Shown piece by piece: positions 44,691 to 52,166 of a stretch of 64,000 bases of DNA. The stretch spans positions 186,001-250,000 of the forward strand of contig NZ_JARBJP010000004.1 in NCBI RefSeq assembly GCF_029309905.1, written 5' to 3'. Origin of the DNA: Brytella acorum (GTDB taxonomy: Bacteria > Pseudomonadota > Alphaproteobacteria > Acetobacterales > Acetobacteraceae). The notes under the pieces are model-generated. The model was not told the DNA's origin and made no database searches. It saw only the letters and a list, made by a program, of their open reading frames with translations. Every line of letters starts with the position of its first letter. Position 1 is the stretch's first letter. A program made the position numbers and the translations under genes.

Positions 44691-44766
44691 GGGGCTGTAG
44701 CTCAGATGGGAGAGCGCCTCGTTCGCAATGAGGAGGTCAGGGGTTCGATTCCCCTCAGCTCCACCA
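44691..44766 (+). tRNA. tRNA-Ala(CGC)
   Basis: The 76-nt gene folds as a standard cloverleaf. Acceptor GGGGCTG pairs with CAGCTCC, D stem GCTC with GAGC, and the T stem is AGGGG/CCCCT with TTCGATT loop. The anticodon arm CCTCG-TTCGCAA-TGAGG carries CGC, reading Ala GCG. CCA is encoded. A promoter lies just upstream. No intron interrupts this tRNA, unlike the tRNA-Lys in this window. Confidence 0.95.
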
Positions 44767-51712: not shown

Positions 51713-51733
51713 TTATGCTCACTTTGAGCATAA
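51713..51733. promoter_or_regulatory. NadQ-like operator upstream of nadABC
   Basis: TTATGCTCA-CTT-TGAGCATAA is a perfect inverted repeat with 9-base arms and a 3-base spacer, 13 bases before the nadA start. As I recall, NadQ sites in Alphaproteobacteria have a similar TATGCTCA/TGAGCATA form and repress nadABC when NAD is ample. The palindrome is plain in the sequence; naming the regulator is inference, and no nadQ gene lies in this window. Confidence 0.75.
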
Positions 51734-51880: not shown

Positions 51881-52166
51881 GAACCGGTAGCTCAGCCGGT
51901 AGAGCATTCGACTTTCAATGGGAGCGCTGCGGGGAAACCCGTTGCTGAACAGACCTTAAATTCGGTGAACGCTCTGACCTTCCGGGTCGTGCCAATACCG
52001 AGCCAATCCCGACTCAGGTCGGGCAGGTGTAGAGACTTGACAGGGTCCACCTAACGGCTTCGGCCCATGGTGAAGATAAAGTCCAGACCACGAACCTTCG
52101 GGGCGGCGAAAGTCGAAGTGGTACGTAATCGAATGGTCGTGGGTTCGAGTCCCACCCGGTTCACCA
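51881..52166 (+). tRNA. tRNA-Lys(UUU), interrupted by a group I intron
   Basis: Exon 1 (51881-51915) gives acceptor GAACCGG, D arm and the 5' anticodon stem TTCGA plus CTTT. Exon 2 (52126-52166) gives TAATCGAA, variable loop, T arm GTGGG/CCCAC and CCGGTTC with ACCA. Joining them yields a perfect cloverleaf with anticodon loop CTTTTAA, anticodon TTT, Lys. Without splicing the anticodon stem cannot close, so the 210-nt insert between anticodon positions 35 and 36 must be removed. Reading the unspliced exon 1 would wrongly suggest Glu (TTC). CCA is encoded. Confidence 0.92.
51916..52125 (+). ncRNA. Self-splicing group I intron (IC3-like) in tRNA-Lys
   Basis: About 210 nt, no open reading frame. 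The exon ends in T and the intron ends in G, as group I splicing requires. P1 can form between exon CTTT (51912-51915) and GGAG (51921-51924), including the T-G pair at the splice site. Core strands are visible: GTGTAGAGACTTGACAGGG (R-like, about 52027-52045), CCACCTAACGG, and GAAGATAAAGTCC (S-like, about 52072-52084), closely matching group IC3 introns of bacterial tRNAs. CAATACCGAGCC upstream may be part of P/Q. Splicing activity itself is inferred. Confidence 0.9.

Follow-up and report, generated by a model that had tools for sequence, protein, structure and literature searches.

A group I intron in tRNA-Arg(CCU) of Agrobacterium and other alphaproteobacteria was reportedly described by Reinhold-Hurek and Shub in 1992, and Paquin et al. 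are said to have dealt in 1999 with bacterial tRNA-Arg(CCU) group I introns, again in the alphaproteobacteria. The tRNA-Ile(CAU) intron of Azoarcus belongs to subgroup IC3 and has a P2 helix capped by GAAA. The main text of a 2014 review of bacterial group I introns, as far as it is accessible, contains no word that starts with 'Lys' or 'lysine' (PMC3984707). A 'group I intron' has been claimed for tRNA-Lys(CTT) of Gloeocapsa, given in the accessible part of the paper either as nucleotides 38-74 (37 nt) or as 49 nt (PMC5733544); like the case reported here it is a named group I intron in a tRNA-Lys, but on that part of the text its anticodon is CTT and the insert is too short for a group I core, and hence it is not comparable. 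Searches of the open literature turned up, in the papers that they listed, no earlier group I intron in a bacterial tRNA-Lys(UUU).

The stretch of DNA analysed here (the window, 64,000 nucleotides of the Brytella acorum genome) carries what is very probably a small group I intron of the bacterial tRNA anticodon-loop type, lying between U35 and U36 of tRNA-Lys(UUU) and predicted to splice itself out to leave an ordinary tRNA. On the plus strand a 5′ exon (51881-51915, tRNA nucleotides 1-35) and a 3′ exon (52126-52166, nucleotides 36-76, with CCA encoded) flank an insert of 210 nt (51916-52125) with a terminal G. When the exons were joined (51881-51915 + 52126-52166), a check akin to the tRNAscan-SE run proposed in a sequence-only reading of this DNA, ARAGORN returned a cloverleaf named tRNA-Lys(TTT), and the intact tRNA-Lys(UUU) genes of three other genera of the same family (loci L122, L123 and L061 of genomes G008, G025 and G022) are identical to the join at 76/76 positions. 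The insertion is in the anticodon loop and would leave the spliced tRNA intact, with lysine identity and anticodon UUU, by ARAGORN on the join and by orthologue identity alike. Ten intact tRNA-Lys(UUU) genes were compared in all, one of which (G015, 75 bases) was left unscored for its other length; the remainder differ from the joined exons at two (G009), three (G029), four (G013) or five (G030) positions, or share with them 62/76 (G005) and 56/76 (G524) positions. As the insert starts with C, ends with G and is flanked by T's, sliding is impossible and its placement between U35 and U36 is unique, and because the intact orthologues match the join the boundaries are anchored by an empty site, beyond the fold alone. 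The exon and insert coordinates first read from the letters proved exact to the base.

Relatives did not help with synteny: no tRNA was reported by ARAGORN near nadA in any of the 15 named relatives tested (of 80 loci), and a split-tRNA finder found no split tRNA at any of the 80 nadA loci. Among the matches listed for the window's quinolinate synthase, the Asaia bogorensis protein is closest (82%) and the first 12 named ones all come from genera of the Acetobacteraceae, which makes membership of that family very probable. A perfect 9-bp palindrome, TTATGCTCA-CTT-TGAGCATAA (51713-51733), lies immediately before the start of nadA (minus strand, 51699) and resembles a putative operator for an NAD-biosynthesis regulator.

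The intron matches the Rfam group I model RF00028 over its full length (model positions 1-253) with 40.7 bits and E 4.4e-9 in a 451-base stretch. A genome-wide search gives it E 7.3e-9 and has two matches in all at E<=0.001. The covariance-model search suggested beforehand thus gave a sub-threshold yet highly significant match. It should be noted that the curated gathering score of RF00028 is 50 bits, and because the score lies under this cut-off the intron is absent from a default Rfam scan. Rfam run on the window at the curated threshold reported a tRNA-Ala(CGC) alone and missed the split Lys gene, which also went undetected by ARAGORN as run here on the window, the only tRNA so reported being that same Ala(CGC) gene (44691-44766). 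The authors of tRNAscan-SE themselves state, in the accessible part of their paper, that tRNA genes split by such introns go missed (PMC8450103).

The core from P3 to P8, with its P3/P7 pseudoknot, is that of a group I intron. P3 is formed by GACCUU (51952-51957) and AGGGUC (52042-52047), five of its six pairs changing on both sides among 24 introns; P4 by UCGGU (51962-51966) and ACCGA (51997-52001); P6a by 52008-52013 and 52018-52023, and P8 by CACC (52048-52051) and GGUG (52069-52072), both placed by the core alignment; and P7, the pseudoknotted guanosine-binding helix, by GACUU (52034-52038) and AAGUC (52079-52083). A P2 hairpin with a GAAA loop and one U-U mismatch (51926-51945) and a P9 helix (ACCAC, 52087-52091, with GUGGU, 52118-52122) were read from the sequence. 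The R- and S-like strands noted earlier are thereby both present, as P4/R (UCGGU/ACCGA) and P7/S (GACUU/AAGUC). Across the 24 aligned cores, with P7 drawn as a pseudoknot, pairing holds in 96.9% of 778 cells, and 21 of the 33 pairs show changes in both partners; the alignment includes the window intron, and because the hand structure was drawn on that intron its own pairs are not independent. None of 500 shuffles, which keep relatedness, reached the real alignment on any of five measures, and sliding the partner strands by one to three columns lowered pairing to 29-48%. RNAalifold, unaided, recovered P3, P4, two P5 pairs, P6a and P8 (31 pairs, of which 18 vary in both partners and five make up an alternative helix where P7 belongs), pseudoknots being something that this program cannot draw. 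In P7 two of five pairs change on both sides, three are invariant and all cells (100%) are paired, the commonest form being GACUG/CAGUC as against GACUU/AAGUC here. In P4 four of five pairs are invariant and the fifth, the last, is the usual G-C in 22 of 24 rows and U-A in a single row, that of the window intron. Judged from the alignment, these P4 and P7 differences are compensated changes. The folding energy does not stand out (z -1.38, a level reached by 19 of 200 shuffles), and no sigma-70-like promoter or terminator was found near the interrupted gene, a scan that is weak evidence in this group.

The 5′ splice site would be recognised, on the pairing seen, through a P1 helix between exon CUUU (51912-51915) plus intron C51916 and the internal guide GGGAG (51920-51924, plus strand). 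The paired exon bases are C32, U33, U34 and U35, and the last of these, U51915, faces G51921. The T-G pair, the exon ending in T and the intron ending in G all stood up, the boundary itself being set by the intact orthologues. As two of its pairs are U-G the window's P1 is weak; in the Lys(CUU) introns of L235, L236 and L238 one such pair is C-G against the same GGGAG guide. Each of the 13 Lys introns examined has at least four exon pairs and a U-G at the splice site. With the RF00028 match and the co-varying core, P1 supports identification as a group I intron. The precursor would fold the ribozyme core and dock exon CUUU on the guide GGGAG; external guanosine would attack after U35, at the U-G pair; and U35 would then be joined to U36 after the intron's terminal G, giving an ordinary tRNA-Lys(UUU). 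The anticodon loop is also the site of tRNA introns spliced by protein, and the insert might in principle be removed by an archaeal-type tRNA endonuclease and ligase and not by its own ribozyme. Bacteria are not known to have such machinery, and the insert has P1 and a full group I core that co-varies and includes P7, all of which speaks against this explanation, to which we give next to no credence. Self-splicing is the preferred account, and we infer that the interrupted gene is transcribed, that its intron removes itself and that the cell would depend on this for reading AAA.

How far the cell depends on the gene turns on whether it is the sole copy. The assembly (3,321,354 bases, 42 contigs, 99.81% complete) gave 49 places in a tRNA-model search at E<=10, two of them the halves of the interrupted gene, and ARAGORN found no intact Lys(TTT) at the other 47, the single Lys gene there being Lys(CTT) (L007). 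A strict pattern for intact tRNA-Lys(UUU) had no match in this genome and one match each in G008, G022 and G025, which served as positive controls. When the intron and the 3′ exon together served as a DNA query, they gave, in this genome, this gene and an intron in tRNA-Arg alone, and the search picked up the 3′ exon stretch in many relatives. The census of tRNA-Lys genes called for by the sequence-only reading therefore finds Lys(CUU) in the assembly and, besides the interrupted gene, no Lys(UUU). Genes for tRNA-Ala(UGC) and tRNA-Ile(GAU) were likewise not found in the assembly, which means that it has gaps and that some tRNA genes are missing; the gaps are probably the rRNA operons. For the assembly the interrupted gene is the sole Lys(UUU) copy, and for the cell the case is strong but not final. 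In the nine window ORFs chosen as genes there are 22 AAA and 54 AAG among 3,773 codons, and under established decoding rules AAA should not be read by Lys(CUU).

These gaps bear on the alternative that the intron no longer splices, so that the gene is a decaying pseudogene and an unassembled tRNA-Lys(UUU) gene serves the cell. As the assembly is in 42 contigs and lacks findable genes for Ala(UGC) and Ile(GAU), a tRNA could be absent from it; the RF00028 score is under the cut-off; and G181, alone among the nine genomes whose Lys(UUU) gene is interrupted, keeps an intact Lys(UUU) gene as well, in a cluster of nine tRNA genes. However, the exons are identical to intact orthologues at 76/76 positions and the changes in P4 and P7 are compensated, both signs of selection, completeness is 99.81%, and the strict pattern finds no intact copy in the other eight of the nine genomes. 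Decay is on this evidence improbable, with a small chance of being correct, and we favour a functional gene. That Lys(UUU) introns lie mostly in sole copies is suggested by these eight genomes, the pattern being strict and two of the genomes incomplete (G046 77%, G196 81%).

The second place in the genome that matches RF00028 (C3:285079-285279) is an intron that interrupts tRNA-Arg(CCU) after U36 (L002 1507-1741, G000:C3), in a gene also missed by ARAGORN. It is homologous to the Lys intron (70% identity over the matched part), and the Lys intron might accordingly have been copied within the genome from it. By blastn the Lys intron comes closest to two Arg(CCU) introns from other genera (75-76%), and approximately unbiased (AU) tests allow the genome's own Lys and Arg introns as one clade (p 0.35) and also a tree in which the Lys intron joins all the Arg introns (p 0.51, with a likelihood 0.79 above the free tree). 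Against this, in a tree of 57 introns the 35 Arg(CCU) introns are grouped with support 88/88 and the genome's own Arg intron falls inside, beside that of G025, whereas the free tree leaves the Lys intron out of this group; other families, too, have Lys(UUU) introns at this site; and uniting the Lys introns of this genome and of G232, both at 35/36, raises the likelihood by 8.07 (p 0.66). A within-genome copy is thus a rather unlikely origin. As the constrained 35/36 pair is more likely than the free tree, the free search missed a better tree. The four Lys(UUU) introns in the tree (five found later were left out; the bootstrap is unsettled and some branches are long) fall in four places, none in any well-supported set, and neither their union as one clade (p 0.26) nor the placing of Lys with Leu introns (p 0.25) is rejected. 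As the AU tests reject none of the groupings tested, the branching order and the donor stay compatible with all.

Common ancestry with the introns of Leu(UAA), Arg(CCU) and Ile(CAU) is indicated by DNA similarity to the Leu and Arg introns and by a single model that finds all three, this model containing the window intron and Leu and Arg introns and no Ile introns. The 5′ exon end GACUU is common to tRNA-Lys and tRNA-Leu(UAA). Lys introns at 34/35 have the guide GGAG, like many Leu introns, and those at 35/36 have GGGAG, which suggests that one extra G in the guide goes with a splice site one base further on. An intron of 210 nt is too small to hold a homing-endonuclease gene, and as there is no room for one it is most likely that the intron is now vertically inherited and that either reverse splicing at the RNA level or recombination brought it in.

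In the family sample 38 of 150 genomes (this one included) have an RF00028 match. These matches, taken with those of the DNA search, gave 55 distinct introns, in Arg(CCU) (35), Leu(UAA) (11), Thr(GGU) (3), Lys(UUU) (2), Asn(GUU), Leu(CAA) and Arg(UCU) (1 each), with no host named for one, and three of the 55 (G042, G044 and G046) come from other families. When 385 genomes of the class were searched with a model built from the 24 intron cores, 49 of them gave 59 places in all; two of these places are one intron of G385 and one (G235:C262) is a chance match, leaving 57 introns, in Leu(UAA) (19), Arg(CCU) (10), Lys(UUU) (9), Thr(GGU) (7), Lys(CUU) (4), Leu(CAA) (4) and Thr(CGU) (2), with two lacking a named host. 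Among the 385 genomes, Lys(UUU) introns occur in nine genomes of seven families and at two sites: at 35/36 in this genome (G000, f1), G232 (f84), G196 (f48) and three genomes of one genus (G181, G309 and G406, f33), and at 34/35 in G046 (f12), G518 (f93) and G204 (f56). All Lys(CUU) introns (G519, G272, G379 and G278) are at 35/36. The sequence-only reading could name no Lys(UUU) host, but the host is recurrent within the class, in nine of 385 genomes. Its list of known hosts, Leu, Arg(CCU) and Ile(CAU), was borne out by homologous introns at Leu(UAA), at Arg(CCU) and at tRNAs with a CAU anticodon, the last (L308, L311 and others) found by the 24-core model. In the phylum sample 41 of 398 genomes match at E<=1e-6, with 19 places in 13 genomes outside the class. 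Thirteen hosts were accepted there, Leu(UAA) (7), a CAU anticodon (5) and Arg(UCU) (1); at the six further places, for which the finder named no host (three) or an untrusted one (three), no Lys-type exon pair was present on either strand, seven known Lys loci all being positive. Lys hosts are therefore seen, in these samples, only in this class.

Several points govern how these counts are read. The split-tRNA finder accepts only introns that follow a T and end in G, which builds these bases into the survey rows; the window boundaries are independent of the finder. Where it gave alternatives (e.g. Arg(CCT), His(ATG)) the option fitting a known host was taken. Hosts were set by eye for L231, L237, L244, L245, L249, L250, L251, L254, L257, L260, L262 and L266, and further for L052, L063 and L114; at L245, L260 and L262 the contig stops within the locus, and the name comes only from the 5′ exon; the finder's name for L242 (G518) was wrong and the gene was read as Lys(UUU); and L113, L259 and L263 have no host named. 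Rfam applied to 11 loci at E<=0.01 matched RF00028 in nine, among the scores being, for two Lys(UUU) introns, 50.2 bits for L211, over the cut-off, and 35.9 bits for L258; as the Lys(UUU) introns L210 and L253 gave no match at this threshold, they rest on the 24-core model and P1. Two candidates were rejected, L267 (E 8e-4) as a chance match in apparent coding sequence and G524, one of five pattern-search matches, as an intact tRNA-Lys.

Other introns of the survey have features of their own. That of L080 (1511-1757, G166:C1; 247 nt) lies after U36 of tRNA-Asn(GUU), has the top RF00028 score of the family sample (78.5 bits) and is distant from the other introns in the tree. Thr(GGU) introns lie after U36 in L052 (G024), L058 (G021) and L104 (G111), and L250 and L252 have Thr(CGU) as host. 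Directly upstream of the interrupted gene both L210 (about 1340 to 1500) and L235 carry a partial 5′ tRNA-Lys copy, where ARAGORN finds no intact tRNA. The tRNA-Leu(UAA) intron of L266 (G385:C76) has a long insert between two core parts, hence two model matches. At L113 (G024:C1:444141-444738) a group I intron interrupts a Leu-like tRNA that has no U33, so that its anticodon loop is unreadable; the gene is possibly degenerate.

Taken further, these data might mean that the tRNA group I introns of the alphaproteobacteria are an unrecognised radiation, in which one lineage came to occupy at least eight tRNA species, entered tRNA-Lys(UUU) repeatedly at two adjacent sites, aided by the shared GACUU exon and by a guide shift from GGAG to GGGAG that moves the site by +1 nt, and captured the sole AAA reader in most genomes concerned. 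We put this forward tentatively, as somewhat short of an even chance. What the survey adds is that such introns recur in several families and use a wide range of tRNA hosts within the class. The AAA-reading tRNA appears to depend on a ribozyme at each maturation event, standard annotation (ARAGORN and default Rfam here) reports such split genes as absent, and the many tRNA hosts together with exact empty sites make a good natural data set for site changes of group I introns.

Compared with the known systems, the Lys(UUU) host and its 35/36 site appear to lack precedent, but the element and its mechanism are of a familiar type. Introns of tRNA-Arg(CCU) share with the Lys intron a homologous core, a similar size, the anticodon loop and splice sites marked by U (5′) and G (3′), but lie after U36 with the guide UUGGG, whereas the Lys intron lies after U35 with GGGAG. 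Those of tRNA-Leu(UAA) have a homologous core, the same 5′ exon end GACUU and similar guides (GGAG or TGAG); they lie after U34, whereas the Lys intron lies after U35 and its guide is one G longer. The Azoarcus tRNA-Ile(CAU) intron is of similar size and has the GAAA-capped P2 also seen in the Lys intron, and by this analogy we presume the window intron to belong to subgroup IC3; the two differ in host tRNA and in site.
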